The position numbers were made by a program, and so were the translations under genes. A stretch of DNA of 64,000 bases from Psychrobacillus sp. INOP01 (GTDB lineage Bacteria; Bacillota; Bacilli; Bacillales_A; Planococcaceae). The notes below the pieces were generated by a model. It worked only from the letters and a program-made list of their open reading frames with translations. It was not told the origin of the DNA and searched no databases. The stretch lies in the NCBI RefSeq assembly GCF_018140925.1, contig NZ_CP073315.1:1488001-1552000 (forward strand), in the 5' to 3' direction. Below are positions 25,481 to 40,766 of this stretch, one piece after another (positions within the stretch are counted from its first letter, which is position 1; every line of letters starts with the position of its first letter).

Positions 25481-26359
25481 TTATTTCCTCTTTTTCCGAA
25501 AGGTTTGATTTTGAATATCTTCAATCGCTTCTCGTGTAGCGTCCAAATAGGTGATTGTTACTTCAAATTGTCTAGAAGCAACTGACATGAACAGAATATC
25601 CATAACGAGTAGCTGTGCTAATCTTGACGATGTCGCACCGCTTCGAAAGTTTGCCTCACGTGTTGGGGAAGTATGTAGCTGGATTTTCGAAATTTGTGAA
25701 ATGGGAGACTGTCCAAACTTGGTCAGACTGATTGTTGTAGCTCCCTTTTCATTTGCAAGCTCCAAGATTTTCTCGACCTCAAAGGTAGCACCTGAAAAGG
25801 AAATTCCAACAACAACATCATCAACGCCCGCGTTCGCTACAATGGTTGCGCCCATATGTAAATCCGTACTCGCAGTGGATGCTTTATGAATACGTAAGAA
25901 CTTTTGTTGTGCATCGATTGCAGCTATACTAGAGGCCCCTACACCAAAAAAGTGAATATTCTTTGCATTGACAATGGCTTCAACAGCCTTTTCAAGCTCC
26001 TCGTTATCCAATAATTCCCCCGTTTCTAGCAAGGTTTGCACAGCGTGCTCCGTCACTTTTTGAATGGTTGTCGAAACGGGTTCGTTTGGCTGAATATCAC
26101 GGTTCGTAAGTTCCGTTTTACGTCCAATATCTCCATTGATACGGAGTTTCAATTCTTGGAATCCCTTGAGCTTTAAAGATTTGCATAGTCTTGTAACTGC
26201 TGCTCCACTAGTCTGACTCATTTCACCTAGCTCCGAAATAGTCATGGTGACAATTTGCTCGGGATCGGCCAATATAAAATCTGCAATCTTTTGCTCCGAC
26301 GGGGGAAGCATGTGCCTCATTTCGTTTAACAATACTAAACCACCATTTGATACTGCCAT
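25481..26359 (-). CDS. murR: MurR/RpiR-family transcriptional regulator
   Basis: A 292-residue regulator: N-terminal RpiR helix-turn-helix (about 1-75, IADFILADPEQIVTMTISELGEMSQTSGAAVTRLCKSLKLKGF) and C-terminal SIS sugar-phosphate-binding domain (about 125-260, FFGVGASSIAAIDAQQKF, GISFSGATFEVEKI). In B. subtilis and E. coli, MurR represses MurNAc genes and responds to MurNAc-6-phosphate. It is the last gene of the recycling operon and the likely ligand of the palindrome in the operon promoter. I chose the ATG at 26359 because AAGAAGGG is nine bases away. Confidence 0.88.
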   Translation of the reverse strand: MAVSNGGLVLLNEMRHMLPPSEQKIADFILADPEQIVTMTISELGEMSQTSGAAVTRLCKSLKLKGFQELKLRINGDIGRKTELTNRDIQPNEPVSTTIQKVTEHAVQTLLETGELLDNEELEKAVEAIVNAKNIHFFGVGASSIAAIDAQQKFLRIHKASTASTDLHMGATIVANAGVDDVVVGISFSGATFEVEKILELANEKGATTISLTKFGQSPISQISKIQLHTSPTREANFRSGATSSRLAQLLVMDILFMSVASRQFEVTITYLDATREAIEDIQNQTFRKKRK

Positions 26360-26415
26360 GTCCATCAACCCTTCTTCACTTGCTTACTAATCTACCCTAT
26401 CATCTAAAGCACATC

Positions 26416-27363
26416 TTAATTTGTCAACTCTTTTACCATTACGTGGAATGTTCGAAAAGTTTTAAACCCGTTTTTCATATATAAATGCCCAGCTGAACTT
26501 GTTTCACTTGTCCATAAAAACCAAGCACCTTGTATACTATTTTGCTTCATAGCATGGAGCGTTTCGTGTAACAGGATTTTCCCCAAACCTTTTCCTTGTT
26601 CACTATTATCCACCCCGAAAGGTCCAAAACGTTCACGAATACCTTCATAACCTCCGAAGAGCGCAAATCCGACTACTTGATCATACTTCTTCGCTACTAA
26701 AATATGTGAGGGATCAAGCCCCTGCAGCACACCTTCACGAATCGCCCTGCCCCAATCGGGATTGAAATGAGTATTTGCAAACTGGATTAAGTCATAAAAG
26801 TCTCCATCCTGAACTTTTCCAAAGGTATAGCCTTCCAGTTCGCGTTCTTGTTTCAGTGCTTGAACAATGTCAGGATACACATAATCGATTAGAGCACGAT
26901 GCATTGCTACAGGTGAATATACGCGTCGGAAACCTTCCTTTTGTAAAAAAGCAAAACCCGAAGGATAACGTGATTCATCAATACCAGGTAAAAAATAGTT
27001 TGGTGCATAGGAAGAAAAGAACATTTTTTTAGCACCTTGCTCTCGGATATAAGCAGAAGCCCGTTCCATTAACTCATGACCTATACCTTCTCTTTCTAAG
27101 CTTGTATCTACCATAAAGAAGGTGATCCAGCCCGTATCGGATTCCAGATTCGTTCCTTCCATAGGAAGCTTTCTAGTAATAGCTAAGATGGCACCTATTA
27201 TCTTTTCGTCACGGACCGCAACAATTAACCCCTTTGAATCGAAGTTGGCATCGAGCATTATTTGTTTACGGAATCGTGTTTGATTGATTGGATCATGTTT
27301 TAGTACGTCATTCCACAACTCAATTATTCCTACTTCATCCCCATTTTTAAATGTTCGATACAT
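26416..27363 (-). CDS. GNAT acetyltransferase with two GNAT domains
   Basis: A 315-residue protein with tandem GNAT folds. The N-terminal domain has VDTSLEREGIGHELMERASAYIREQGAKKMFFSS (about residues 85-118) and the C-terminal one has [27 protein letters not shown], the intact acetyl-CoA loop (about 246-272). It is followed by murR and preceded by murQ with a six-base gap, so it is part of the recycling operon. A role in N-acetylating or modifying an amino sugar or muropeptide amine would fit but is not demonstrated; such two-domain GNATs have diverse substrates. Confidence 0.82.
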   Translation of the reverse strand: MYRTFKNGDEVGIIELWNDVLKHDPINQTRFRKQIMLDANFDSKGLIVAVRDEKIIGAILAITRKLPMEGTNLESDTGWITFFMVDTSLEREGIGHELMERASAYIREQGAKKMFFSSYAPNYFLPGIDESRYPSGFAFLQKEGFRRVYSPVAMHRALIDYVYPDIVQALKQERELEGYTFGKVQDGDFYDLIQFANTHFNPDWGRAIREGVLQGLDPSHILVAKKYDQVVGFALFGGYEGIRERFGPFGVDNSEQGKGLGKILLHETLHAMKQNSIQGAWFLWTSETSSAGHLYMKNGFKTFRTFHVMVKELTN

Positions 27364-27369
27364 TGTCCA

Positions 27370-28284
27370 TCACCCTTCTTCTTGAAAAGCAAGTTTCACT
27401 GCATCTCTTACAAAACCATTGGAATTTGTAATCAGTGTCTCTGCTTTTTCTTTTTTGACCTCGGCAATTATCATGACGATTGCAAGCTTAACATCATAAT
27501 CGGTTTCTTCCAGCACTGATTCTGCTTGTTCATATGTTACATCCGTAATATTACATACCATTTGTTTAGCACGTTCTCGCAATTTAAAATTACTAGCATT
27601 CAAATCGACCATCAGGTTTTTATATACTTTTCCGATTTTAATCATCGCAGTAGTAGAAATCATGTTAAGAATCATTTTGTGGGCGGTTGCTGCACGTAAT
27701 CTTGTAGAACCGGTCAATACCTCTGGACCTGTCACAACCTCGATTTTAATATCTGCAAAGTTGCTTATGGTGGATTGCTCATTACTGGAAAGGCTGACTG
27801 TCGTTGCACCGCAAGAATTTGCATGGATGAGTGCACCTTTCACATATGGTGTACGACCACTTGCTGCAATACCGATAATGACGTCATTCTTTTTGATAAC
27901 GAGCTTCTCCAAATCAGTTGCGCCAAGCTGCTCATCGTCTTCGGCTCCTTCTACTGCGTTGAACATAGCCCCTTTTCCACCTGCTAAAACCGCTTGCACC
28001 TGCTCATGCGATGTACTGAAAGTTGGCGGGCATTCTACTGCATCCAAAACACCGATGCGTCCACTCGTCCCTGCCCCTACATATATAAGTCGCCCACCAC
28101 TTTTAAAAGCATTCACGACTTTTTCCACTGTCTGTTCAATTTGTGGTATCACTTTTTGAACAGCCAATGCTATGGTTTGGTCTTCTTCATTCATAATATT
28201 CAAAACTTCATTTGTGGTCATTTCATCAAGTCTTGTTGATTTTGGATTTGATTCTTCTGTTGCTAACCTTGATAACTTTTCCAT
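27370..28284 (-). CDS. murQ: N-acetylmuramic acid 6-phosphate etherase MurQ
   Basis: Cleaves the lactyl ether of MurNAc-6-phosphate to give GlcNAc-6-phosphate and D-lactate in the cytoplasm. The 304-residue protein starts RLATEESNPKSTRLDEMTT and has the SIS domain with GAGTSGRIGVLDAVECPPTF, in which Glu is the catalytic acid, and GIAASGRTPYVKGAL. Length and motifs are those of MurQ. Its presence makes MurNAc-6-phosphate the central intermediate of the operon and requires upstream kinases because the importer here is an ABC system and not a PTS. Confidence 0.96.
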   Translation of the reverse strand: MEKLSRLATEESNPKSTRLDEMTTNEVLNIMNEEDQTIALAVQKVIPQIEQTVEKVVNAFKSGGRLIYVGAGTSGRIGVLDAVECPPTFSTSHEQVQAVLAGGKGAMFNAVEGAEDDEQLGATDLEKLVIKKNDVIIGIAASGRTPYVKGALIHANSCGATTVSLSSNEQSTISNFADIKIEVVTGPEVLTGSTRLRAATAHKMILNMISTTAMIKIGKVYKNLMVDLNASNFKLRERAKQMVCNITDVTYEQAESVLEETDYDVKLAIVMIIAEVKKEKAETLITNSNGFVRDAVKLAFQEEG

Positions 28285-28296
28285 CGCTCAGCCTTC

Positions 28297-29460
28297 CTAT
28301 CTATATAGTAAGTATGGTTGCCTCATTTTTATAAAATCGCCTGTGTCGAGATGGCATTGTCGAATATAATCCTCTATCTCCCCTGCCATCAATACCTTCC
28401 TAAGCTGTGCGTTTCCAGCAAGCAGATCAAACATAGGATGCTTTAAACTGCCATATTCTAAAAACTTCAACTCCTTAGGATACAATTTTGCAATGACTGC
28501 CAAAATCCGTACAAAAGTTTGGACTGGTTGGAATAATTGTCGGTCGGTAATATGCAACTGGATACCTTCACAAGGTTCACCTGCGAATTTCTGGTATGTA
28601 GGCGTAAAAGAAATTGCTCGTGCTTGGACATTTGCAAGTCCCAATGAATTGACTTCATCCTGCAATTGCTCCCCATGTATAAACGGGGCACCGACTATTT
28701 CAAAGGGTTGTGTCGTTCCCCGTCCTTCCGATAAGTTCGTTCCTTCTATTAGACAAGTACCTGGATACAATAACATCATGTCCAAACTCGTGGTGTTTGG
28801 AGATGGTGGTATCCAAGGTAATCTTGTCTCATGGAAAAATGAATCTCTTTTCCAACCTACCATCTGTATTACCTTCAAATCACAATGAATAGCAAACACT
28901 TCATTAAAGTATCTTGATAATTCTCCTACTGTCATGCCGTGACGATTTGGTATTGGGTACATGCCAACAAAGGAGGTGAAATTTGTATCGACCAAGTTCC
29001 CTTCCACGATATGTCCACCGATTGGATTCGGACGGTCGAGAATATACATTTGCTTACCTGTACGGGCACAGGCTTCCATCATATAAGCCATTGTGTAAAT
29101 ATACGTATAATAACGTGAGCCAATATCCTGCATATCAAAGACTATTACGTCAACAGGTTCTAGCATGGCATCGGTTGGTTTTTTCGATTTTCCATATAAA
29201 CTAAACACAGGTACCCCTGTCATACTGTGAACAGAGTCTGAAAACCTTTCACCTTCCTTAGTGTTTGTCTTCAGACCATGCTCCGGTGCATAAAGCGCCG
29301 TAAGTTGGATTTGTGGATGCTCGTGAAACAATCGTATTGTCGAGATGAGTTCGGCATTTGCCCCTGTTTGATTGGTGAGTAGTCCGATACGCTTGCCTTG
29401 AAGTTCCTGCACATGACGTTCCATGAAAACATCGATACCAAGTTTCACTTTGCGTATCAT
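28297..29460 (-). CDS. NamZ-like exo-beta-N-acetylmuramidase (DUF1343, YbbC), cytoplasmic form
   Basis: Belongs to the YbbC/DUF1343 family, whose B. subtilis member NamZ releases MurNAc from the non-reducing ends of peptidoglycan fragments. The 387-residue protein has GKRIGLLTNQTGANAE, YAPEHGLKT, SLYGKSKKPT and VFDMQDIGSRYYTYIYTM, all conserved. It lacks the N-terminal signal peptide of B. subtilis NamZ and starts directly MIRKVKLGIDVFMERH, so it should act in the cytoplasm on imported fragments. Its ATG overlaps the stop of the permease gene (TAATG). Confidence 0.88.
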   Translation of the reverse strand: MIRKVKLGIDVFMERHVQELQGKRIGLLTNQTGANAELISTIRLFHEHPQIQLTALYAPEHGLKTNTKEGERFSDSVHSMTGVPVFSLYGKSKKPTDAMLEPVDVIVFDMQDIGSRYYTYIYTMAYMMEACARTGKQMYILDRPNPIGGHIVEGNLVDTNFTSFVGMYPIPNRHGMTVGELSRYFNEVFAIHCDLKVIQMVGWKRDSFFHETRLPWIPPSPNTTSLDMMLLYPGTCLIEGTNLSEGRGTTQPFEIVGAPFIHGEQLQDEVNSLGLANVQARAISFTPTYQKFAGEPCEGIQLHITDRQLFQPVQTFVRILAVIAKLYPKELKFLEYGSLKHPMFDLLAGNAQLRKVLMAGEIEDYIRQCHLDTGDFIKMRQPYLLYR

Positions 29461-30428
29461 TATTCCTTCACACCACCAAAAGTCAAACCTTTAATAAAGT
29501 AACGCTGGAATAAGATAAATACGATAATCATCGGAATCGCAGCAACTGCCGCTCCACTCATCAATAGCTTGAAGCTTGCTAGGTTTGCGTCCTGCAATGT
29601 TTTTAATCCTACCGGTAACGTGTACAATTCTGCGCTATTTAAGACGATAATTGGCCATAGGAAAGAGTTCCATACACTCATGAATGTGAAGATTCCAAGT
29701 GCTGCAAGTCCAGGTTTTGCAAGAGGCAGAACCACTGTCCAAAACGTCTTCCATTCACTTGCACCATCCATTTTCGCCGCTTCTAGCAGCTCATCCGGAA
29801 TGGAAAACATGAACTGTCTCATTAAGAACACTCCAAATACCATAGATAAATCAGGTAAAATCAAAGCCCAATGAGTATCCATTAAACCTAAATTCCCAAC
29901 CATGATGAACAAGGGAACAAGTGTTACTTGCCCTGGGATCATCATCGTTGAAATAATAATCCAGAAAATCAAGTTTCGACCAGGGAATTTTTTCTTTGCC
30001 AGTACATAGCCCGCCATTGAATCGATTAATAAAATACCGAGTGTCACGACGACCGAAATGTATAAGCTATTGAAAAACCATTTCCCAACATCATGTTTTT
30101 GGAACAAGCTTTTGTAGCTAGAAAATGTATTATCAACAATGTGATCCATCATCCCACGGTGGTAAGCCTCTTGTTTAGAGTCCCCCTCTTTTGCCGCTTC
30201 TCTTGCCTCTCCCCAATGCTCAAAATAGAGGGGTATTCCCATCGGGTACATTTTGGGTGGATTGGCATCCACATATGAAACAGGACGTTCCATATCCTCC
30301 GATTGATAACTGCTTAGCTGGAGGGAAGTGGAGAAAACCCAATACAGCGGAAGTAAAGAAACCACTGCAAATACGGAAAGCAAAACAAAAATAACTAGTT
30401 TGTTCAGTTTACTTTTGTGTTTTATCAT
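29460..30428 (-). CDS. carbohydrate ABC transporter permease (MalG type)
   Basis: Inner membrane permease subunit of a CUT1 sugar importer, with six hydrophobic helices over roughly 322 residues and the EAA loop DELLEAAKMDGASEWKTFWTVVLPLAKPG that contacts the ATPase. A Pro/Met-rich stretch after the first helix (about residues 35-80) is an extended extracytoplasmic loop. The start is uncertain: GGAGG is four bases from the ATG at 30434 and ten from the ATG at 30428; a GTG at 30449 is inside the preceding gene. No ATPase gene is in the operon, so a shared MsmX-like ATPase is expected. Confidence 0.88.
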   Translation of the reverse strand: MIKHKSKLNKLVIFVLLSVFAVVSLLPLYWVFSTSLQLSSYQSEDMERPVSYVDANPPKMYPMGIPLYFEHWGEAREAAKEGDSKQEAYHRGMMDHIVDNTFSSYKSLFQKHDVGKWFFNSLYISVVVTLGILLIDSMAGYVLAKKKFPGRNLIFWIIISTMMIPGQVTLVPLFIMVGNLGLMDTHWALILPDLSMVFGVFLMRQFMFSIPDELLEAAKMDGASEWKTFWTVVLPLAKPGLAALGIFTFMSVWNSFLWPIIVLNSAELYTLPVGLKTLQDANLASFKLLMSGAAVAAIPMIIVFILFQRYFIKGLTFGGVKE

Positions 30429-30445
30429 AATCATCGATCCTCCAA

Positions 30446-31390
30446 TCACTCATCATGTCGAAGTACCCGGAACTGGATAATCGAGAAGATGAGGATGATA
30501 ACAAATAGTACAACAGATTGAGCCGCAGCAAGTCCAAATTCGAAATCTCGGAAACCAGTCTTATAGATTAAATGAACCAAGGTTTCCGTTGCACTTCCCG
30601 GTCCACCGCCAGTCATCATGATAATCTGAGTGAATACCTGGAATGAACCAATCGTACTTAGCAAAACAAGATATAAAGTCGTTGGCTTCAATAATGGAAT
30701 TGTGATGTGAAGCCATTGCTTGAAGGTACTTGCTCCATCAATCCGAGCTGCTTCGTAAAGAGATTGAGATATCGATCCCATGGAAGCAAGATACATAATG
30801 ATTCCTACCCCGAAAGGAATTAGACATTGCATGATGATTAATGCCCAAAGTGCACTTCCTGACTGCCCGAGCCAATTGATCTGCTCAATACCAAACCAGC
30901 CAAGAACATAATTGAACAATCCAAATTCATAATTGTACATCCAACGCCATACCATCGCGATGATTACCATCGAAGTAACAGTTGGCAAATAAAATGCCGA
31001 TCTGAATAGGCTTTGTGAAAATTTCCCAAGTGCAAAAATCATAGAGGAAATTACGAGTGCGCTAATCACACTAAATGGTACTGTTACAACCGTGAACAAT
31101 AACGTATTTTTCAAAGCAATCCGGAAGGCTTCACTCTCAAAAACTTTTATGTAGTTATCTAAACCAGCAAACTCACTCCCAAACACTTTGTGATCCTGAA
31201 ATGAAAGGACAAATGCCCAAACTACTGGAATCGCAATGAATAGGGTGAATAAAATTAGCTTTGGCAATAAAAAGAGGTAGGCGCTATAATTTTTTTTCAT
31301 TTGTTGAAAAACGCCTTTATTCGGTTTTTTTATAACCTTTAATTTCTCCGTTTCTTTTTTGGGTACAGTACCCATCGGAATTTGAGCCAT
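30446..31390 (-). CDS. carbohydrate ABC transporter permease (MalF type)
   Basis: The second CUT1 permease subunit, 314 residues with six helices starting after a basic 30-residue N-terminal tail. The EAA motif is SLYEAARIDGASTFKQWLHITIPLLKP. GGAGG lies nine bases before the ATG. It pairs with the downstream MalG-type subunit, which its 3' end meets. Within this operon the likely cargo is MurNAc, anhydro-MurNAc or a GlcNAc-MurNAc disaccharide or muropeptide. Confidence 0.9.
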   Translation of the reverse strand: MAQIPMGTVPKKETEKLKVIKKPNKGVFQQMKKNYSAYLFLLPKLILFTLFIAIPVVWAFVLSFQDHKVFGSEFAGLDNYIKVFESEAFRIALKNTLLFTVVTVPFSVISALVISSMIFALGKFSQSLFRSAFYLPTVTSMVIIAMVWRWMYNYEFGLFNYVLGWFGIEQINWLGQSGSALWALIIMQCLIPFGVGIIMYLASMGSISQSLYEAARIDGASTFKQWLHITIPLLKPTTLYLVLLSTIGSFQVFTQIIMMTGGGPGSATETLVHLIYKTGFRDFEFGLAAAQSVVLFVIILIFSIIQFRVLRHDE

Positions 31391-31412
31391 TTTGGGAAAC
31401 CTCCTAAAAATG

Positions 31413-31442
31413 AAGCAGGCTTGCGTAATGCAGAGCCTGCTT
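31413..31442 (-). terminator. stem-loop between binding protein and permease genes
   Basis: AAGCAGGCT and AGCCTGCTT are perfect complements in the 60-base gap. Stem-loops here are usual in sugar ABC operons and allow higher expression of the binding protein than of the permeases. Confidence 0.7.
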
Positions 31443-31450
31443 AATGTTGG

Positions 31451-32782
31451 TTATTTTAATAATTCGTCCACAGCTTTTTTCGCATCTGCCATTGCAGCTT
31501 CAGCTGTTTTTTCACCATTGAATACTAATTGAAGTTGTGCTTGAATTGCTTCATCAATTTTTTTCCACTCTGGATGACGAGGAAGCATAACCACTTGATC
31601 AGACATTTCCATTGCACGAGTCATTTCTGGGTTGTCTTTGAATGGATCCATTTCAGACGCACTGATACGTGCAGGGAAAATACCATAATTTTGTGCCATA
31701 TTGTACTGTTCTTCTGCCGTTGATATGAATTTCATGAAGTCAGCTACTGCTGCTTTTTTATTCGTTTCTTCCTGATGGAACATAATCCATCCACCAACAC
31801 CACCGATTGTAGATGAAGATTCATTTTCTCCTGTCGGATATTCGGCTACAGCAAAGTTTGTAGGGTATGCTCCCTGTGCAGCTCCAATAGCCCAAGTTGC
31901 CCATGGTTGCATTGCTACTGTACGTTGTTCTTCATTGGCCCACGCTTGGAATGTTCCACCTACATCTGCACCACCATGAGTTTCAGGTGCCACTTTTTCA
32001 GTCAGCTTTAAATCGGCCAAATCTTGGATTGCTTGAATTGTTTCTGGTGAATCAAATGTAAACTCCGTCATATCTTCGTTCAGTGGTGATCCACCATTTT
32101 TGTAGAAGAATGGCCAAGCTTCATAATAACCAGGCATGATATACGTAGAGAAACCGTAAACGTCTGTCTTTCCATCACCATCTCGGTCAAACGTCAGTTT
32201 CTTCGCAGCTTCTAAAAACTCATCATATGTCCACTTTCCATTTTCAGGAGGTGTCACACCTGCTTCTTCAAATAAATCTAAGTTCAATAACATCGAGTGC
32301 AACGTGATACTATTTGGAATTCCATATAACTTATCATCATATGTGTAGGCTTCCAGAGCATTTTCATAAAAGTCTGCTTTTTCATCCTTATCCAAGAACG
32401 AATCTAGTGGTTCCACTACTCCTTGCTCGATATGATCGATACTAACTGCACTACCACTAATATCAACTGGAGCAATATCCGGCCATGATTTACCAGCAAT
32501 TGCTACGCCTAATTTGTCGCCCATTTCCGCCCAAGGCACTTGAACAAGGTCCACTTCAACACCTTCATTAGCCTCTTCGTATTCCTTGATCTTCGCTTCT
32601 AACCAGTGGAATTTATTGTCGTCTTTGTCGGGCCATCTTGGACCATCCCAAATCGTGATTTTCCCCTTGAATTCTTCCGCATTGCCGACTTCTTCAGAAT
32701 CACCATTACATGCAGCCAAAACTGATGCTGCCAAACCAAGCGTTGCAAGTGCAAGTGCTGATTTTTTAAACACTTTCTTCAT
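31451..32782 (-). CDS. extracellular sugar-binding lipoprotein of the ABC importer
   Basis: A 443-residue CUT1 solute-binding protein. The signal peptide ends in a lipobox (ASVLAAC near residue 24), and the mature part begins with an acidic linker, then GKITIWDGPRWPDKDDNKF. It shows the usual family motifs such as WTYDEFLEAAKKLTFDRDGDGKTDVYG. I place the start at the ATG at 32782, preceded by GGGGGA; an upstream frame overlaps AnmK. In context it would capture muropeptide sugars at the cell surface. Confidence 0.9.
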   Translation of the reverse strand: MKKVFKKSALALATLGLAASVLAACNGDSEEVGNAEEFKGKITIWDGPRWPDKDDNKFHWLEAKIKEYEEANEGVEVDLVQVPWAEMGDKLGVAIAGKSWPDIAPVDISGSAVSIDHIEQGVVEPLDSFLDKDEKADFYENALEAYTYDDKLYGIPNSITLHSMLLNLDLFEEAGVTPPENGKWTYDEFLEAAKKLTFDRDGDGKTDVYGFSTYIMPGYYEAWPFFYKNGGSPLNEDMTEFTFDSPETIQAIQDLADLKLTEKVAPETHGGADVGGTFQAWANEEQRTVAMQPWATWAIGAAQGAYPTNFAVAEYPTGENESSSTIGGVGGWIMFHQEETNKKAAVADFMKFISTAEEQYNMAQNYGIFPARISASEMDPFKDNPEMTRAMEMSDQVVMLPRHPEWKKIDEAIQAQLQLVFNGEKTAEAAMADAKKAVDELLK

Positions 32783-32807
32783 TTTCCATTTCCCCCAATC
32801 GTCGATT

Positions 32808-33968
32808 TTACCACGCAATTTTCCCCAAAATTGTTTGTCTTTTTGCTCCTGTTGTGGAGGGTAAATTATTTGGAACTTTTTGAAACCCTAAATAACCAAG
32901 TAATGCAAATACAAAAGCTTCTTTCGCATCACTGTTGAAACCAATTTCATCTAATGCTTTCACTTTGACCTGATCTGGAAGCAAGTCAGTTAAATAGGAT
33001 AAGAGCGTCTTGTTATGGACACCTCCACCGCTGATGATTACTTCCTTCAATTTATGAGACTCAATGTATTGCTCAATCTCAAGTGCTAATGATTTAGCGG
33101 TTAACATAGTAACCGTAGCAATTTTGTCTTCTGCTGAACAACCATATTCTTCTCCTTGGTTCCATAGCTTTTCAGCATAATCAGCACCAAACAACTCTCT
33201 GCCTGTGCTTTTTGGAGCAGGTAAAGAAAAGTAATCATTCTTCATCAACAGATTCAACCATTCCAAATGAATCTTACCTGATTTAGCTAAGTCTCCGTTA
33301 GAATCGTAGCTTTGCTTACCACCGGTAAACTTGGAGACAAAGGAATCGATCATCATGTTTCCCGGTCCGGTATCATATGCAAGCACTTCTTCAGCATTTT
33401 GAGTGGGTGCTAACACTGTTATATTGGCAATACCTCCAATATTAACTAGTACTCGCCCATTTGTACTTGATTGAAAAAGAAGTTGGTCTGCAAATGGTAC
33501 CAGCGGAGCTCCTTGCCCTCCAGCTGCCATATCTCGTGTTCGGAAATCGCCAATGACCGGCTTACCGGCATATTCAGCCAAGGCTGAAATATCACCAATT
33601 TGCAAGGTATTTGCCCTTGCAAATTCCCATTGACTTACTGCGATTGGCTCGTGCCAAATCGTTTGTCCATGCGAGCTGATCAAATCTATTGAAGCGTAAT
33701 CAATCTCTGAATCTACTAAAGAATCCTTGATGAGCTTTGCATACAGTTCGCCTAAATACATATTCATCGAAGATACATGATTCAGTGGAGCTAGTGGATC
33801 CATCAGCTGGAATAGCTGAGCAGTCAATTCTTCTGAGTAGGCCATTGTCACGAAATGTTTCAGTTCATACGTTAGCTTGTCAGAAACAAACGAGAAATCA
33901 GCAATTGCGATATCAAGTCCATCAAGGGATGTACCTGACATTAATCCACAAACACGCATGGGCTTCAC
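32808..33968 (-). CDS. anmK: anhydro-N-acetylmuramic acid kinase AnmK
   Basis: Converts 1,6-anhydro-MurNAc plus ATP to MurNAc-6-phosphate, the MurQ substrate. The protein has the signature GLMSGTSLDGLDIAIADF near the N-terminus, SSHGQTIWHEP, GDFRTRDMAAGGQGAPLVPFAD and a late SGGGVHNKTLL. Length is about 386 residues. A GTG at 33968 is six bases from AAGGAAGG, while an in-frame ATG two codons upstream abuts that site. AnmK is not part of the B. subtilis MurNAc operon. Its presence implies that anhydro-muropeptides from lytic transglycosylase activity are recycled. Confidence 0.94.
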   Translation of the reverse strand: MKPMRVCGLMSGTSLDGLDIAIADFSFVSDKLTYELKHFVTMAYSEELTAQLFQLMDPLAPLNHVSSMNMYLGELYAKLIKDSLVDSEIDYASIDLISSHGQTIWHEPIAVSQWEFARANTLQIGDISALAEYAGKPVIGDFRTRDMAAGGQGAPLVPFADQLLFQSSTNGRVLVNIGGIANITVLAPTQNAEEVLAYDTGPGNMMIDSFVSKFTGGKQSYDSNGDLAKSGKIHLEWLNLLMKNDYFSLPAPKSTGRELFGADYAEKLWNQGEEYGCSAEDKIATVTMLTAKSLALEIEQYIESHKLKEVIISGGGVHNKTLLSYLTDLLPDQVKVKALDEIGFNSDAKEAFVFALLGYLGFQKVPNNLPSTTGAKRQTILGKIAW

Positions 33969-33986
33969 GAGCATCCTTCCTTTCGA

Positions 33987-34032
33987 TAAAAGCGCTTACA
34001 CATAGTTTAGTTGTTTCGAAATTAAATATCAA
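33987..34032 (-). promoter_or_regulatory. internal promoter and cre-like site before anmK
   Basis: In the 90-base gap between nagZ and anmK the minus strand carries TTGATA (34032-34027), 17 bases, then TAAACT (34009-34004). Just downstream is TGTAAGCGCTTTTA (34000-33987), which departs from the CcpA cre consensus TGNAANCGNWNNCA at one position. This suggests catabolite repression of the kinase-transporter half of the operon. Confidence 0.6.
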
Positions 34033-34064
34033 TACTTTTCTAATATTCTAAAAAAAAATATCAT

Positions 34065-35633
34065 TTAGAATAATGTTACAGGTAATTTCCCATTAATTTC
34101 TGTTCTTCCCACTAGATACTCTGCCACTACTTCAAATACCGTTTGCGTGAACTCAAATGCACAAATCATACGGTTCGCCTGTGGAAAATAGGAGGCATCG
34201 TAAGGCGAACGAATCGCTACCACATCCACCGGCTTCCCGGAAGCGATTAATCGATGGACGAGCTTCTGCTGGTTTTCATGCTGTACAGCATTAAGTGTAA
34301 GAACCACGATATGGTCGTAGTTATTCACTTTGTCTATAGCATTTTCCAGCGCTTCTTCATAACCGGTTGGATCCAATTCAATTTCATCCACTTGTGAGTG
34401 AACTTTCTTTAGTTTTTCAGCCATTTCAAGTGTTGCATAGCGTTTATCCTCGACCAGAGTTGCGTAAATGTTTGTCGGGTAAATTAATAGAACCCGATCA
34501 TCCACTTGAATCGATTTACCTTCTTTACTAACCAATGTTATTCCATCCTTATAAATGGTCTTCATTTGGTCTTGATGTAACTGTGAACCTACGAAACTTG
34601 CGACTTCTTGTATTTTCTCAATCTCTTCCCAGGACGTATAGTTGGAAATCATTCGTTCAATTCGATTAATTGATTGGTCGATTTGTTTCTCTGCTATCTT
34701 ATTATTTTGGACTGCCTCCACCAATTTTAAGATGGATTCTTCCTGCAAGGAATGGATATGGGATACCATCACTAAGTCAACGCCCGCTTCTACCGCTTTG
34801 ACGCATCCATTGACAGTTCCAATTCCTTTTGCAATAGCATCCATTTCCATGCAATCCGTAGTGATGACACCTTCAAAACCTAGTTCTTCCCGAAGAAGTC
34901 CTGTAATCACCGAGCGAGATAAAGTCGCAGGGGTGTTTGACTCTTTTTCAAGTGCCGGGAAATACACATGAGCACTCATAATCGCATCTGCTCCAGCTGC
35001 GATACAATCCTTGAATGGCACCAGTTCAATCTCATGCAACCTTTTTAGATCATGTCCAATCACGGGTAAATCCAAATGGGAGTCCACACTTGTATCTCCA
35101 TGACCTGGAAAATGTTTTAGAGTCGTCATAATTCCCGCTTCCTGCATCCCGAGCATGGAGTTCTTCGCCATCGCCGTCACTTCCTGCACATTTTCACCGA
35201 ATGAACGCACGCCAATGACTGGATTTTTCGGGTTATTATTTACATCAACAACTGGCGCCAAGTTCCAGTTGATACCAATTGCCTTCAATTCTTTTCCGGT
35301 CAAAAAACCAGCATTTCGGGCATGGTTTGGCTTATGAGTTGCCCCGAGTAGCATGGCTCCCGGGATGATGGTCGTACCTTCACCAAGTCTGCGGACCACA
35401 CCATTTTCCTGGTCAATACAAATTAATAATGGAGAAGTATACCCTGCAGTCTTCGCTTCTTTTTGCAAGCTTTTGGTCAGGGTTAGTATTTCCTGTGGAG
35501 TACCAATGTTTCGCCCAAATAGTATGACACCGCCAATATGATATTCGTGAATTAAGTGTTTTATCTCGTCCGACATAGTAATACCCTTAAAACCGGCTAT
35601 CATTAATCGGCCCACTTTTTTATGCAAGTTCAT
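34065..35633 (-). CDS. nagZ: beta-N-acetylglucosaminidase NagZ (GH3), cytoplasmic form
   Basis: Removes non-reducing GlcNAc from GlcNAc-MurNAc(-peptide) fragments. The 522-residue protein has the GH3 signature LKHFPGHGDTSVDSHLDLP, with the Asp-His dyad typical of NagZ enzymes, EGVITTDCMEMDAIAKG, and a C-terminal domain of about 180 residues like that in B. subtilis NagZ. It lacks the N-terminal lipoprotein signal of the B. subtilis enzyme. The start is the ATG at 35633, one base after the PIG-L stop with GGAGG overlapping that stop; a longer in-frame extension lies inside the previous gene. Confidence 0.93.
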   Translation of the reverse strand: MNLHKKVGRLMIAGFKGITMSDEIKHLIHEYHIGGVILFGRNIGTPQEILTLTKSLQKEAKTAGYTSPLLICIDQENGVVRRLGEGTTIIPGAMLLGATHKPNHARNAGFLTGKELKAIGINWNLAPVVDVNNNPKNPVIGVRSFGENVQEVTAMAKNSMLGMQEAGIMTTLKHFPGHGDTSVDSHLDLPVIGHDLKRLHEIELVPFKDCIAAGADAIMSAHVYFPALEKESNTPATLSRSVITGLLREELGFEGVITTDCMEMDAIAKGIGTVNGCVKAVEAGVDLVMVSHIHSLQEESILKLVEAVQNNKIAEKQIDQSINRIERMISNYTSWEEIEKIQEVASFVGSQLHQDQMKTIYKDGITLVSKEGKSIQVDDRVLLIYPTNIYATLVEDKRYATLEMAEKLKKVHSQVDEIELDPTGYEEALENAIDKVNNYDHIVVLTLNAVQHENQQKLVHRLIASGKPVDVVAIRSPYDASYFPQANRMICAFEFTQTVFEVVAEYLVGRTEINGKLPVTLF

Positions 35634-35634
35634 T

Positions 35635-36351
35635 CTATACCTCCTTAATAATAGGGAATCCTGGGATATGCCCTTCACGGCGAATATGTAGCCCTTTTGA
35701 ATTTTGTAAGGTCTGGGCGTATTTCGTTCTACCCAAACAACCACGTGTTGTACCAAGTGCTTTGTAATAGTCATAGTATCTGAAACTATTAGAGTTCATG
35801 ATGAACCAATAACAAGACAAAGCTTCCAAGTATGCAGCAAAGGAATCCGTGACATCCACATAGATATCTGGTTCATACCCCTCCATATCCTCCCAGTTTT
35901 CACTATGGAACACGCGTCTCAATCCATGTGGTGGCAGCCCCCCTAAATCAAAACCGGGCAAGGAAGCCTTCAACCATGCATCCTGTACAATTTTCTGACA
36001 TAGTGCATGATCTGGATGCATACTATTCACCCAATGTGTTATGACGAAATCTGGTTTTTCTTTTCGGAAAATGGTAGCAACTTCTTTTACTAGCTCTTCA
36101 TTGAAAGTCAGCTCTGCATCTCGGTGATTTAACGTAATGCTCGTGCCCCCTAAGATGGTTGCTGCCTTTTTTGCTTCCTCTATTTTTTGCTTGCGGTAGG
36201 TCTCGACATCCAAGTGGGCTGGTGCTCCTTTTTCTCCCGCCGTTAAATGAAGAAACGTGACCTTATAACCTGCTTGTGCGTATTTGTGGGCAATTGCACC
36301 AGCCTGAATCTCTCCATCTCCGCAATGCGCCCCAACAATCATTAAATGCAT
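35635..36351 (-). CDS. LmbE/PIG-L family deacetylase with atypical active site
   Basis: A 238-residue zinc-dependent N-acetyl-sugar deacetylase-type protein. The second metal motif is intact (HPDHALC near residue 121). The first motif, usually AHPDDE, reads AHCGDGE at residues 8-14: the zinc-binding His9 and Asp12 are kept, but the residue matching the general-base Asp is Gly11. It lies between a serine hydrolase and nagZ in the recycling operon, so a GlcNAc- or MurNAc-containing substrate is plausible. The altered base suggests either a different mechanism or a different activity within the fold. Confidence 0.82.
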   Translation of the reverse strand: MHLMIVGAHCGDGEIQAGAIAHKYAQAGYKVTFLHLTAGEKGAPAHLDVETYRKQKIEEAKKAATILGGTSITLNHRDAELTFNEELVKEVATIFRKEKPDFVITHWVNSMHPDHALCQKIVQDAWLKASLPGFDLGGLPPHGLRRVFHSENWEDMEGYEPDIYVDVTDSFAAYLEALSCYWFIMNSNSFRYYDYYKALGTTRGCLGRTKYAQTLQNSKGLHIRREGHIPGFPIIKEV

Positions 36352-36361
36352 ACCAACACTC

Positions 36362-37414
36362 CTAATTCGTTAAATTTGTAACAATAATGTTATGTAGACG
36401 TGGTCGTAATCGAATGATTGGGTCATGGCGACCAAAATACACACGATTAGTTAATAATGTAACTGTCAATTCTCTTCTTGGATCGATATAAAAGCTTGTG
36501 CCAGTATAGCCTGTATGGCCATAGGTGGTGGGTGACAACAAGTCTCCTGCTGGACTGATTCCGTGTCCTTTTAGTTGCCAGCCTAAACCACGGCTCTCAT
36601 CGGAAAATGGCGTGAAGTTGTCTCGTGATTTCCTCAACCATTCAGGATGCAATATTTGCTTGCCCTCATACACTCCATAGTTTTCCAACATGTCTGTAAA
36701 GTTGGAGACATCCTCCATCGTGGAGAACAACCCAGCATGACCACTAATACCTCCCATAAATTCCGTATTATCATCATGGACTATACCGTATTTATGACCT
36801 TTTAGATGTTCAAGAAATTCAGTCGGTGCAAACTGAGTACGTTTGTATTTAGGCACGTACCCTGTGTTCATCATGGCAAGTGGGTGGAATAAATGCTGCT
36901 TGGAGAATTCCTCGAGTGGCTGTCCAGTCACTTTTTCAATAACCTCCATCAGCAAAATATAACCAAGATCGCTATATACGACTTGCGTGTCAGTTACATA
37001 AGAAAGTTGCTCCTGCAAAATGTCAGCGAGAACTTCTGGTGTCGTGAGTTTCCGTTCAAAATAAGGACGGTGTGCAATTAGTCCAGATGAATGCGTCAGC
37101 AACTGCCGTAATGTTATGCTTTCTTTCCCATTCTTGGCGAACCCCGGTAGAAACTTAGTGACTTTATCATTCAGGTGGATGTCTCCAGATTCAAGGAGCT
37201 GAAGCATGACTGGAAGTGTGACCATCACTTTTGTTATAGATGCCATATCGAATACATGCCTATTGGTCATTGTTACGCGGTCATCTTCCAAACTATTGCT
37301 CCCGATAGCTTCCTCTAAAATGACTTTCCCCTTATGTTTAATCCGGATGACCGCTCCTGGGGTAACGTGTTTGTCGATTTCCTGCTGTAAAAATGTAAGC
37401 ACTTTATCTTTCAT
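36362..37414 (-). CDS. serine hydrolase, class C beta-lactamase fold (AmiE/YbbE-like)
   Basis: A 350-residue penicillin-binding-protein-like hydrolase. The SxxK motif is SITK (FDMASITKVMV at about residue 58), the tyrosine motif is YSD (VVYSDLGYILL near 147), and HTGYTG near residue 297 takes the KTG-like position. The B. subtilis counterpart in the mur operon, AmiE, is a secreted MurNAc-L-Ala amidase. This protein has no signal peptide, beginning MKDKVLTFLQQEIDK, so it would strip peptides from imported muropeptides in the cytoplasm. GGAG precedes the ATG. Confidence 0.85.
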   Translation of the reverse strand: MKDKVLTFLQQEIDKHVTPGAVIRIKHKGKVILEEAIGSNSLEDDRVTMTNRHVFDMASITKVMVTLPVMLQLLESGDIHLNDKVTKFLPGFAKNGKESITLRQLLTHSSGLIAHRPYFERKLTTPEVLADILQEQLSYVTDTQVVYSDLGYILLMEVIEKVTGQPLEEFSKQHLFHPLAMMNTGYVPKYKRTQFAPTEFLEHLKGHKYGIVHDDNTEFMGGISGHAGLFSTMEDVSNFTDMLENYGVYEGKQILHPEWLRKSRDNFTPFSDESRGLGWQLKGHGISPAGDLLSPTTYGHTGYTGTSFYIDPRRELTVTLLTNRVYFGRHDPIIRLRPRLHNIIVTNLTN

Positions 37415-37469
37415 TCTCTCACTCCTTTTTGATAGAAATGACTATAATAAAGCATAACGAATCCAGCTC

Positions 37470-38441
37470 TTAACTTGAGATTTCTTCGTTTAAATGCTTC
37501 ACAATTCGTTCATTAATCGGGACCTGTTGTGATATTAGAGCAGCAATAACTGCCCCACCAACAGGGGATACGAGTGCTCGTTTAAACCTAATATTAGGGA
37601 GCTTCTCCTTTGCCAACTGATGAAAATGATCTATAAAAAAGTGGGCGTTTGTAAATACACCACCAGACAACACAATATTTGTGGCGTGATTCTTTTCGAA
37701 TAGCTGATCGTGACACGACTGTATAGAACACATCATTTCCGAACACGCATTAGCAATAATCCTTTTTGCAATTTCATCATCGGCAATTGCAGCATCTACC
37801 ACTAGCTGGGAAAGAGGGGCAATGATTGAACGTGGATGCTCCAATCCATAGACTTTACCAATGATGTCCGGAACCAAATTCACTTCAAAGTATTGCAAAA
37901 AAGCAGCCGTTAATGAGGTAGATGGTCCACGCTGGTCAAATTCTTTAAAGACGGCACGAAGCGCTTCATTACCTAAATGAAAACCACTGCCTTCATCATC
38001 AAACAAATAACCCCATCCACCTGACCGCACCATTTTCGTTTCATCATTTACTCCAAACGTAATCGATCCTGTTCCGGCAATTTGTACTATCCCCGTCTCT
38101 CCCAATGTTCCAGCATATAGAGCATTGAATGCGTCATTTTTGATAATTATATGGATGTCCTTCGGCAAATATTTCCTTAGCAAGTCAGCAACTTCAGCAT
38201 CCCTTCCGCTTTCACCAACTCCCGCCATCCCAGCAAAGCAAATGGATATTTGATTGAATATTTCGGTATTTTGCACATTAAGCTGCAGCAGCAAACCACT
38301 CATCACAATCTCGAACTCTTTTGGTGTCATCGTATTTAGATTACTGCCTCTGGTTATCGCCCTCATGTAAACGGTTCCATTTTCATCTGCAACCATGGCT
38401 ATCGTCTTCGTTCCTCCACCATCAATCCCTAATACATACAT
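37470..38441 (-). CDS. BadF/BadG-family sugar kinase, probable MurNAc/GlcNAc kinase (MurK-like)
   Basis: A 323-residue ASKHA kinase of the BadF/BadG/BcrA/BcrD family. The phosphate-binding loop is VLGIDGGGTKTIAMVADENG at residues 3-22, GIVQIAGTGSITFGVND is the second phosphate motif and LSGGVF the adenosine region. Clostridium MurK in this family phosphorylates MurNAc and GlcNAc at O6. As first gene of an operon with MurQ and an ABC importer, it supplies MurNAc-6-phosphate. A strong GGTGGGAG ribosome binding site and the operon promoter precede it. Confidence 0.85.
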   Translation of the reverse strand: MYVLGIDGGGTKTIAMVADENGTVYMRAITRGSNLNTMTPKEFEIVMSGLLLQLNVQNTEIFNQISICFAGMAGVGESGRDAEVADLLRKYLPKDIHIIIKNDAFNALYAGTLGETGIVQIAGTGSITFGVNDETKMVRSGGWGYLFDDEGSGFHLGNEALRAVFKEFDQRGPSTSLTAAFLQYFEVNLVPDIIGKVYGLEHPRSIIAPLSQLVVDAAIADDEIAKRIIANACSEMMCSIQSCHDQLFEKNHATNIVLSGGVFTNAHFFIDHFHQLAKEKLPNIRFKRALVSPVGGAVIAALISQQVPINERIVKHLNEEISS

Positions 38442-38479: not shown

Positions 38480-38507
38480 ATTATAAATTTTTGAAATATT
38501 TTTTCAA
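38480..38507 (-). promoter_or_regulatory. recycling operon promoter with MurR-type operator
   Basis: On the minus strand TTGAAA (38507-38502) is followed after 16 bases by TATAAT (38485-38480). The -35 hexamer is the left arm of a perfect inverted repeat, TTGAAA-N5-TTTCAA, at 38491-38507. RpiR-family regulators often bind TGAAA-N5-TTTCA sites, so this is the natural MurR target. The start of the first gene is about 40 bases downstream. Confidence 0.7.
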
Positions 38508-38998: not shown

Positions 38999-40597
38999 TT
39001 AATATTTTGTTTCCAAATCAATTCCTTTGTAGAAATGCTTCAGGATTACGTCATACGTATAACCTGCTTCAGCCATACCAACTGCTCCGACTTGGGACAT
39101 TCCTACACCATGTCCCCAGCCACCACCATTTGTCTTGAAGCCAGTAACTTCACCTGTTACATCATCTTTTACAGGTTCAATGATAAATAATGTACTTAAC
39201 AAAACAGCAGGGTTTCCACTTGCATTGATATACTGGAGGGCCCAGCGTATGCGGTCTTTATATTCATAGAACGTCCCGTTTTCTGTGACAAACTCAATTT
39301 TGGCTGCTCGACCAGAGCTAGAACGCTCCGTTACATTAATTTCAAGAACTTTTCCGACTTCTGTATTGTAGTACGTACTAAGAACCTGACTGATTTCCTC
39401 GGAAGTCCATTCAAAATTCCAGCGGTAATATCTTGACCAATCCGCTTCAAAGTCTCCCTTTTTCACTTTTCTTAGTGATTCAGATCCATCTTCCTCCAAT
39501 TTATATACATCCAATGCAGGAACGTATTTTAATGAATTCCCTTTTTGCGCCACATGAGTAGCACGTAGATAAGGTGTCGCTTCCGATGTCCATACATCTT
39601 CGTTATTTGCAGTAAAGCCACCACTTGTCGAATGGAAAACTGCAGTGATAAGCTTACCTTCATAAGTTGCAACTATTCCTCTTGTTTCATCTACAGCATC
39701 ATTTGAAACCTGATGTTCTGCTTCGAATCCACCATATACTTGGTCAGAGGTTGTCGGCAGCAAATCATAACCATCTGCACTGCGTTTACCTAGGTTAGAA
39801 AGTGCATATGTGCGTGCTGCGATTGCCTGAGCTTTTTGCGCTTCCAGTTCACCATATGGTACAGGTGGCAATTCGCGTGGTACTACTCCATATAGATACT
39901 CTTCCGTTAATAATTCATTGATACCTGCTAATGTCCCACTGCTATTGAATCCAACTTCCGCAAGTCCACGATAAGTTGTCCCATTGATGGACACTTTTTT
40001 TGATGGCGCAATTATTTGTACCGCATTAGTTGTTACCTTTTCTTCCCCATTATGAATGACCTTTAATTCATTTTCACCTTCAGCAATAGTAATGATTTTC
40101 CAAAAAGAATCATTTGCTGCAAGACCTTTAGAAACTACTTCGTTTTTAAAAGCAGTTCGAACGGTGAAGGAAGCATCCGCGGCAAATTCGCCAATGTACA
40201 GGCGGTAGCCATTGTTGTAATCTTCGACATATGTTGGATAACCTTCAGCTTCTGCGCGCGTTACCCAATCGGTCACATATGCTTCACTCGTAGTATAGGA
40301 AACTTGCAAACGATAATTGGTTTGCACGGTAGACGTGGACCCCAGCTCAACAAAAACTTCTTCATCTAGACCTGAAAACAAAACTACACCAGTAGCTTTA
40401 TCGAGTACATCAAATGCACCCTCTGCTCCAATAGTCAATGACTCTACACCCGGTACAACCCCAATCCGAATCGTCGGTTCTGCCACCATATCAGCAGATG
40501 CTTTATTTTGAGCCGTTCCCTGAACAAATAAAGCTAGTACAATTGTAAAAACGACAACATACTTAAAAAGATTTTTCAACAAACCCATCCCTCTCAT
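38999..40597 (-). CDS. secreted SpoIID/LytB-domain protein
   Basis: A protein of about 530 residues with an N-terminal signal peptide (LFKYVVVFTIVLALFVQG), a sporulation/wall-related N-terminal region, and a SpoIID domain with EEYLYGVVPRELPP, KAQAIAARTYAL, FHSTSGGF and a terminal GGGWGHGVGMSQVGA. SpoIID-type enzymes are lytic transglycosylases that cut glycan strands and leave 1,6-anhydro-MurNAc. The start is unclear: ATG at 40597 lacks a good ribosome binding site, while a TTG at 40579 follows GAGAGGG by nine bases and gives a classic signal peptide. It is transcribed upstream of the recycling operon in the same direction but with its own terminator. Confidence 0.85.
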   Translation of the reverse strand: MRGMGLLKNLFKYVVVFTIVLALFVQGTAQNKASADMVAEPTIRIGVVPGVESLTIGAEGAFDVLDKATGVVLFSGLDEEVFVELGSTSTVQTNYRLQVSYTTSEAYVTDWVTRAEAEGYPTYVEDYNNGYRLYIGEFAADASFTVRTAFKNEVVSKGLAANDSFWKIITIAEGENELKVIHNGEEKVTTNAVQIIAPSKKVSINGTTYRGLAEVGFNSSGTLAGINELLTEEYLYGVVPRELPPVPYGELEAQKAQAIAARTYALSNLGKRSADGYDLLPTTSDQVYGGFEAEHQVSNDAVDETRGIVATYEGKLITAVFHSTSGGFTANNEDVWTSEATPYLRATHVAQKGNSLKYVPALDVYKLEEDGSESLRKVKKGDFEADWSRYYRWNFEWTSEEISQVLSTYYNTEVGKVLEINVTERSSSGRAAKIEFVTENGTFYEYKDRIRWALQYINASGNPAVLLSTLFIIEPVKDDVTGEVTGFKTNGGGWGHGVGMSQVGAVGMAEAGYTYDVILKHFYKGIDLETKY

Positions 40598-40766
40598 TCT
40601 ATAATTTTGTTTCAAGGGATATAGATTCGACTCAATTATGATAATTCCTTCCGAATTTTTCAAATATTCTCGATATTTTATTTTAATCATTCGTTTGGTT
40701 TACCAAGTGGTATAAATACTTAAGGATAAAGAACTACAATTTATTTTCGAATACTTGTTAAAATAC

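Follow-up and report, generated by a model that had tools for sequence, protein, structure and literature searches.

We examined a stretch of 64,000 nucleotides from Psychrobacillus sp. INOP01 (contig NZ_CP073315.1, positions 1,488,001 to 1,552,000; hereafter the window), whose genome is a single contig of 4.30 Mb. The minus strand between positions 25481 and 38441 carries twelve open reading frames (ORFs), spaced by -11 to 90 bases in the ORF list, which are best explained as an operon for an ATP-binding cassette (ABC)-fed, cytoplasmic pathway that recycles peptidoglycan fragments. We give this reading, which is not proven, a probability of roughly two in three. It is built on the observed gene content and order, the lack of signal peptides and of a recognisable MurP, the conservation of the cluster and the adjacency of a secreted SpoIID/LytB protein.

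The first gene (37470–38441) encodes a MurK-like sugar kinase of the BcrAD_BadFG family (PF01869) that is related to characterised MurK; its best solved relative is 8zo3, "N-acetylmuramic acid/N-acetylglucosamine kinase" (E 6.6e-44, residues 2–301 of 323), from which its substrate is presumed. It is followed by an AmiE/PBP4B-like serine hydrolase of the S12 beta-lactamase fold (36362–37414; PF00144), which scores 165.8 bits against the PBP4B model PRK03642 (below the cut-off of 385) and shows SITK and HTG motifs by eye. We presume this protein to be an amidase acting between N-acetylmuramic acid (MurNAc) and L-Ala, its likeness to AmiE being one of S12 fold rather than of direct comparison with the AmiE sequence. 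The next two genes encode an LmbE/PIG-L-fold protein with HxGD instead of HxDD (35635–36351; PF02585) and NagZ, a GH3 beta-N-acetylglucosaminidase (34065–35633; PRK05337, 229 bits, cut-off 207). The NagZ start was placed at 35633 (522 residues) rather than at the longest-ORF start, leaving one base between NagZ and the PIG-L stop; the nearest solved relatives of NagZ are 6k5j, RmNag (4zm6) and the lipoprotein YbbD (3bmx). AnmK, the anhydro-MurNAc kinase (32808–33974; PF03702, E 2.1e-103; NF007148, 435.8 bits, cut-off 387), is the sole PF03702 match in the genome.

The second half of the operon opens with a CUT1 importer, comprised of a solute-binding lipoprotein (31451–32818; PF13416/SBP_bac_8; lipobox LAAC by eye, h-region value 2.19), whose true start is probably near 32782 as read from the translation, and two permeases (both PF00528, BPD_transp_1) in the MalF-like (30446–31390) and MalG-like (29460–30449) positions. 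It is followed by a NamZ-like exo-beta-N-acetylmuramidase with NamZ_N and NamZ_C domains (28297–29460; PF07075, E 3.2e-85; PF20732, E 2.9e-49), the MurNAc-6-phosphate etherase MurQ (27370–28284; TIGR00274, 390.2 bits, cut-off 302), a protein with two GNAT stretches that is a candidate GlmA-like glucosaminide N-acetyltransferase (26416–27363) and, as the last gene, a MurR/RpiR-type regulator with HTH_6 and SIS domains (25481–26368; PF01418, PF01380), which reached no NCBIfam curated cut-off. The Pfam and NCBIfam assignments match the names given to all twelve ORFs in a preliminary description of this DNA, and no ATPase gene is found among them, in agreement with its account of an importer lacking its own ATPase.

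For comparison, loci were gathered by scanning GTDB genomes with an alignment of the PIG-L protein; the best 80 of 85 were used, of which 69 come from Bacillales. Counts over these 69 loci omit L103 (an unclassified bacterium) and L104–L113 (Planctomycetota/Sumerlaeota), and the presence of a family was counted within ±10 kb.

Hydrolase location, import and a secreted neighbour

The location of the three hydrolases was assessed with a simple h-region check, which looks for a basic residue followed by a hydrophobic run free of charges and is not SignalP. By this test NagZ, NamZ and the serine hydrolase of the window have no signal peptide, as the preliminary description had stated. The respective Pfam domains start at positions 3, 25 and 10 of the proteins, and inspection of the longest ORFs for signal peptides masked by wrong start codons revealed none. 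The Bacillales relatives behave likewise, with 0/44 serine hydrolases, 0/61 NamZ and 1/50 NagZ scoring positive; in the single positive NagZ the hydrophobic stretch falls inside the GH3 domain. Negative controls gave 1/66 (MurQ), 0/47 (AnmK) and 0/41 (MurK), and the lipoprotein, as positive control, 33/37.

No MurP was found in the genome. Its PF02378-type EIIC genes are two, one of the N-acetylglucosamine (GlcNAc) type (TIGR01998, 659.2 bits, cut-off 553.2) and one of the mannitol type, so that a MurP encoded elsewhere was not seen among the PF02378 matches. The genome has two MalK-type ATPases; one (L133) is followed by its own permease, and the other is a stand-alone enzyme of the UgpC/MsmK type (PRK11650, 499.7 bits, cut-off 432) at about 241.8–243.0 kb (L140:3842-4972). 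The stand-alone gene lies in a row at 238–248 kb with an AgaS-family gene, an aldolase-like gene, a sugar-kinase-like gene (these two named by eye) and a second NagA, an arrangement that resembles an amino-sugar catabolic cluster including the shared ATPase. The genome holds two copies of NagA above the cut-off. Of two nagB-like matches, the one near nagA and the GlcNAc phosphotransferase system (PTS; L139) shows one internal TGA, and the other (L138) is free of stops.

Directly upstream of the operon, on the same strand, lies a gene for a secreted SpoIID/LytB-domain protein (38999–40690; PF08486, E 1.4e-21; TIGR02669, 214 bits, cut-off 83.3), which the preliminary description had missed. Its signal peptide was recognised by eye, and a weak SPOR match falls below the cut-off. 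Judged by the NCBIfam cut-off it is not the sporulation SpoIID, scoring 132.4 bits against TIGR02870 where 234.75 is required. A terminator-like hairpin (38991–38961) lies near the gene, which is probably its own transcription unit. Homologues occur in 31 of the 69 Bacillales loci, 19 at 54–82% identity and 12 at 28–36%, in two orientations, and 30 of these 31 homologues are no more than 1.2 kb away from a gene of the cluster; the SpoIID domain was Pfam-checked in the window and in L044, the other homologues being identified by BLASTP and that of L068 by a partial match. The 4.3 Mb of the source genome contain 2 matches to the SpoIID domain, a rate at which fewer than one chance neighbour is expected across the 69 loci. 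Loci with the SpoIID/LytB homologue differ in content from those without it: AnmK is present in 30/31 versus 17/38, NagZ in 31/31 versus 19/38 and the window-type lipoprotein in 30/31 versus 7/38, whereas an Lpl-type importer is found in 1/31 versus 17/38. In these comparisons the p-values are inflated by kinship, and loci truncated at a contig end were scored as lacking the homologue.

SpoIID proteins of B. subtilis and Waddlia are described as lytic transglycosylases, from whose action in vitro anhydro-muropeptides result (PMC6635528). By analogy with these proteins, which are of a different subtype, the SpoIID/LytB protein of the window is presumed to be a lytic transglycosylase, and we infer that it supplies the substrate of AnmK. 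AnmK would then have been kept in this Gram-positive because the secreted protein makes anhydro-MurNAc fragments.

An LmbE-fold protein without the general base

The PIG-L protein departs from its superfamily in the catalytic motif. LmbE-like enzymes carry the motif HxD1D2 together with a further His, and D1 is described as the general base (PMC4101496). In the window the D1 position is Gly11, and Gly is found in 93/94 family sequences, with Leu in the remaining one, while the metal ligands His9, Asp12 and His115 are kept in 94/94. The 94 sequences are the window protein, 76 from the gathered loci (76/80; L103, L108, L110 and L111 were lost at ORF calling or clustering) and 17 from 18 stretches fetched at the class level (L121 gave none above threshold); those of L131 (G166) and L037 (Planococcus sp. 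MER TA 32b), whose contigs are both 389904 long, are probably one gene counted twice. In canonical PIG-L loci (L007–L031) the motif is HxDD in 22/25 and AHAGD in one, and 2 yielded no motif; these loci were dropped as a neighbour control, their flanks of ~1.4 kb being too short to say much. The AHAGD protein (L012) is a distant PIG-L relative from genomes of the same family, in which the first Asp has been lost in another, possibly GalB-like, lineage.

An AlphaFold model of the window protein (pLDDT 89) has 2ixd (TM 0.80) and the hydratase GalB (5cgz; TM 0.83) as first Foldseek matches by E-value. The profile alignment sets AHCGD of the window against AHADD in 2ixd and AHSAD in GalB. Fold and metal ligands are common to the window protein, the LmbE-like deacetylases (BshB, MshB and chitobiose deacetylase) and GalB. 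The deacetylases have the base Asp, whereas the window protein has Gly and GalB, also without it, has Ala (HSAD). The preliminary name of LmbE-type deacetylase therefore holds for the fold and metal ligands, while deacetylase activity is not to be assumed because the general-base Asp is replaced, a loss which that description had overlooked.

The PIG-L protein travels with the two-domain GNAT, Planctomycetota included, and the two genes are co-stranded in 70/70 loci where both were recognised. Residues 10–312 of the window GNAT match a 5kf1-type protein (E 1.2e-11), which we take to be GlmA. The window GNAT also matches the GNAT part of RmNag (4zm6; E 1.4e-9), and this resemblance to a NagZ-GNAT fusion links the GNAT to NagZ. 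RmNag is a fungal protein that acetylates glucosamine (PMC4680927).

In three Planctomycetota loci (L104, 7080-10714; L108; L112) the GNAT, a sodium:solute symporter (a Pfam assignment in L104, named by eye in L108 and L112) and an HxGD PIG-L protein form a unit, near which the rest of the recycling set was not recognised. On a Sumerlaeota contig with the GNAT and an HxGD PIG-L protein, a gene for an N-acetylmuramoyl-L-alanine amidase-like protein (PF07313; L105:5083-6000) lies two genes ahead of the GNAT. After the PIG-L/GNAT pair comes a gene for a C26 peptidase in Bacillus tianshenii (L092:9992-12440) and one for the delta-lactam-biosynthetic de-N-acetylase PdaA in Alkalihalobacillus pseudalcaliphilus (L077:9983-12621; TIGR02884, 341.2 bits, cut-off 298). 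PdaA was considered as a regular neighbour and rejected, as it is full-length in only 1/80 loci (L077); in L107 a deacetylase-like gene beside PIG-L gives a weaker match of 80 residues. A further two-domain GNAT, which shares 18% identity with that of the window, belongs to the clusters of L034 (7964-8980), where it sits between MurK and the serine hydrolase, and of 36 further Bacillales loci; it is absent from the operon of the window.

What the PIG-L protein does allows two proposals. It may be an ordinary zinc N-deacetylase with another base, an alternative that touches a single step of the pathway and that we consider unlikely. The fold shared with BshB, MshB and chitobiose deacetylases, together with the retained metal ligands and HxDH, speaks for it, as does the proposal that the Asp of BshB is a general acid and not a base (PMC4101496). 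Against it stand the replacement of Asp by Gly in 93/94 sequences, the naming of GalB, likewise without the Asp, as a hydratase, and the futility of a deacetylation followed by acetylation. The second proposal, more doubtful still, is that the protein catalyses, in place of deacetylation, a new reaction whose substrates are imported muramyl sugars, after which the GNAT would re-acetylate the amine. Examples would be the opening of muramic-delta-lactam from spore cortex or the removal of another, non-acetyl acyl group. The carbohydrate esterase 4 enzyme SwsB, in which Asp is replaced by Asn and which forms the delta-lactam from muramic acid by cyclisation (PMC12444981), may serve as a precedent for base loss that changes chemistry, by analogy across different families. 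A role in cortex lactam is weakly supported, because the link to SpoIVA is weak (16/17 PIG-L carriers versus 181/244 non-carriers; one-sided Fisher p 0.049, uncorrected for relatedness) and one carrier, G166, was confirmed to have no SpoIVA match; the Planctomycetota relatives are a further argument against explaining the PIG-L protein by sporulation. If the second proposal is true, PIG-L and GNAT would be a dedicated enzyme pair that salvages modified wall sugars.

Conservation and predicted regulation of the cluster

The gene set recurs beyond the window, and the grouping exceeds chance. All twelve families are found in 21/69 Bacillales loci, with identical order in 9/69. The individual families occur in 65 (GNAT), 60 (NamZ), 58 (MurQ), 57 (MurR), 50 (NagZ), 47 (AnmK), 44 (serine hydrolase), 41 (MurK) and 37 (lipoprotein) of the 69, and among named organisms the nearest relatives of the PIG-L protein belong to Paenisporosarcina (91%), Ureibacillus (90%), and Psychrobacillus and Sporosarcina (both 89%). 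The importer slot is variable: 37 loci have the window type and 18 an Lpl-type importer (named by eye; SBP_bac_1 by Pfam in L065), with both in 1 and neither in 15. In the wider class the PIG-L profile matches 21/398 genomes at E 1e-30, and stretches from 18 of the 21 contain a GNAT match in 18/18 and NamZ in 13/18; three of them (L114–L116) have the order MurR-MurQ-importer-AnmK-GNAT-PIGL-NamZ-NagZ-MurK. In Ornithinibacillus/Paucisalibacillus loci (L049, L054, L059, L060, L061) MurQ and MurR are each matched twice around the cluster.

Upstream of MurK lies a promoter-like site, TTGAAA-16-TATAAT (11/12; 38480–38507, minus strand), whose -35 element is overlapped by the palindrome TTGAAA-N5-TTTCAA, a candidate operator. 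The MurR-like protein probably represses from this palindrome, its binding there being predicted. The palindrome is exact in 3/10 neighbours examined (L034, L036, L037), and in L039–L043 a SpoIID gene ends 20–139 bases before MurK. The count of consensus promoters was dropped as support, as the region holds 32 promoter-like sites versus 39.9 expected, which is not above chance.

A proposed import-first recycling route

Because MurP was not found, the importer is of the ABC type, the hydrolases lack signal peptides and AnmK is present, the simplest reading is that import comes first and cutting takes place inside the cell. In the route that we propose, whose substrates, reactions and ATPase pairing are predicted, the secreted SpoIID/LytB protein would work as a lytic transglycosylase and, along with further wall lysins, release GlcNAc-(anhydro)MurNAc fragments, which the lipoprotein and the two permeases would import with power from the shared UgpC/MsmK-type ATPase encoded elsewhere. 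Inside the cell, the AmiE-like serine hydrolase would strip the peptide, and the GNAT, with its PIG-L-fold partner, would restore the N-acetyl group on non-acetylated sugars and make them cleavable by NagZ and NamZ. MurK would phosphorylate MurNAc and GlcNAc, and AnmK would phosphorylate anhydro-MurNAc, after which MurQ would remove lactate and NagA would lead to glucosamine 6-phosphate.

Several observations weigh against this reading. The nearest solved relatives of the lipoprotein (first among them 5f7v, E 1.3e-29) do not settle its ligand, which is not readable from sequence, and the NagB match falls below the curated cut-off (227.3 versus 236.9 bits). The only non-Bacillales NamZ in the signal-peptide test (L110, Sumerlaeota) seems to carry a signal peptide that is likely real, and by eye the N-terminus of a NagZ-like fragment in L103 is hydrophobic. 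In 7/10 neighbours the palindrome is degenerate (L035, L062) or absent upstream of MurK (L039–L043). The loci were collected via PIG-L, so that clusters without it are uncounted; their relatedness means that Fisher values are not independent tests; and contig ends shorten several of them, 5/69 having <8 kb upstream of PIG-L (L038, L072, L083, L095, L099). The PIG-L marker is present in only 17/261 genomes of the order, and the route is therefore optional.

Two alternatives concern the pathway as a whole. In the first, the importer carries only free sugars (MurNAc, anhydro-MurNAc and GlcNAc) made outside by other lysins, and the internal hydrolases handle minor or leaked material. Free sugars are the substrates of MurK-like and AnmK kinases and the genome also encodes a GlcNAc PTS, both of which fit such uptake; the recurrent trio of NagZ, NamZ and serine hydrolase, lacking signal peptides, would then have no substrate, however, and CUT1 importers generally carry oligosaccharides, so we hold this alternative to be improbable. 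The least probable alternative, that the pathway feeds the cell on foreign walls or on other polymers of amino sugars instead of recycling the cell's own wall, would suit the patchy spread (17/261), the alternative importers in the slot and the symporter beside the GNAT/PIG-L pair in some Planctomycetota, but the pairing with SpoIID/LytB and the set of AnmK, MurQ and MurK indicate peptidoglycan in particular, and use of own and foreign walls is not exclusive.

The import-first route shares parts with several known systems. The B. subtilis cluster murQ-murR-murP-amiE-nagZ-ybbC, in which ybbC is presumably NamZ, has MurQ, a MurR-type regulator, an AmiE-like hydrolase and NagZ in common with the window. 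In B. subtilis, MurNAc is imported by the PTS permease MurP, and AmiE and NagZ act extracellularly; no function is assigned to ybbC (PMC5061867). The window differs from this arrangement in its ABC import, in a NagZ and an AmiE-like hydrolase without signal peptides and no MurP, and in the addition of AnmK, MurK, GNAT and PIG-L. It contains the genes expected for cytoplasmic recycling, namely NagZ without a signal peptide, AnmK and MurQ, together with predicted fragment import. The Gram-negative NagZ/AmpD/AnmK/MurQ pathway (PMC5061867) and its ABC version in Agrobacterium, with the muropeptide importer YejBEF-YepA (PMC9790009), likewise import first and cut inside with AnmK and MurQ, whereas the window has a CUT1 sugar-type importer in place of AmpG or YejBEF and an S12-type hydrolase in place of AmpD, in a cell with a single membrane.

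Clostridium acetobutylicum reportedly has MurK and a NagZ without a signal peptide. In this species an N-acetyltransferase restores the N-acetyl group on peptidoglycan fragments before NagZ (Reith and Mayer 2011, via PMC4680927), a position that the GNAT candidate of the window would share, and to this route a single locus of the window adds an ABC importer, NamZ, AnmK, MurQ, PIG-L and an adjacent SpoIID/LytB protein. The preliminary description had presented cytoplasmic recycling in a Gram-positive as close to Gram-negative logic; the route stands as the simplest reading, while its novelty was over-stated in view of the C. acetobutylicum and Agrobacterium precedents. No account of the twelve-gene operon was seen among the literature matches listed for ABC import of MurNAc or muropeptides in Bacillus, muramic lactam recycling, acetyltransferase and NamZ, which mostly do not cover subscription papers. 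The parts are known, and what is new is their combination and the base-less LmbE protein.

The B. subtilis model is one of extracellular digestion followed by PTS uptake, and this locus would offer a compact, import-first alternative to it in many Bacillales genera. A secreted partner of a lytic-transglycosylase family would explain the presence of an anhydro-MurNAc kinase in a Gram-positive, and the conserved LmbE-fold protein is a case in which both the assumed activity and the database name are doubtful.

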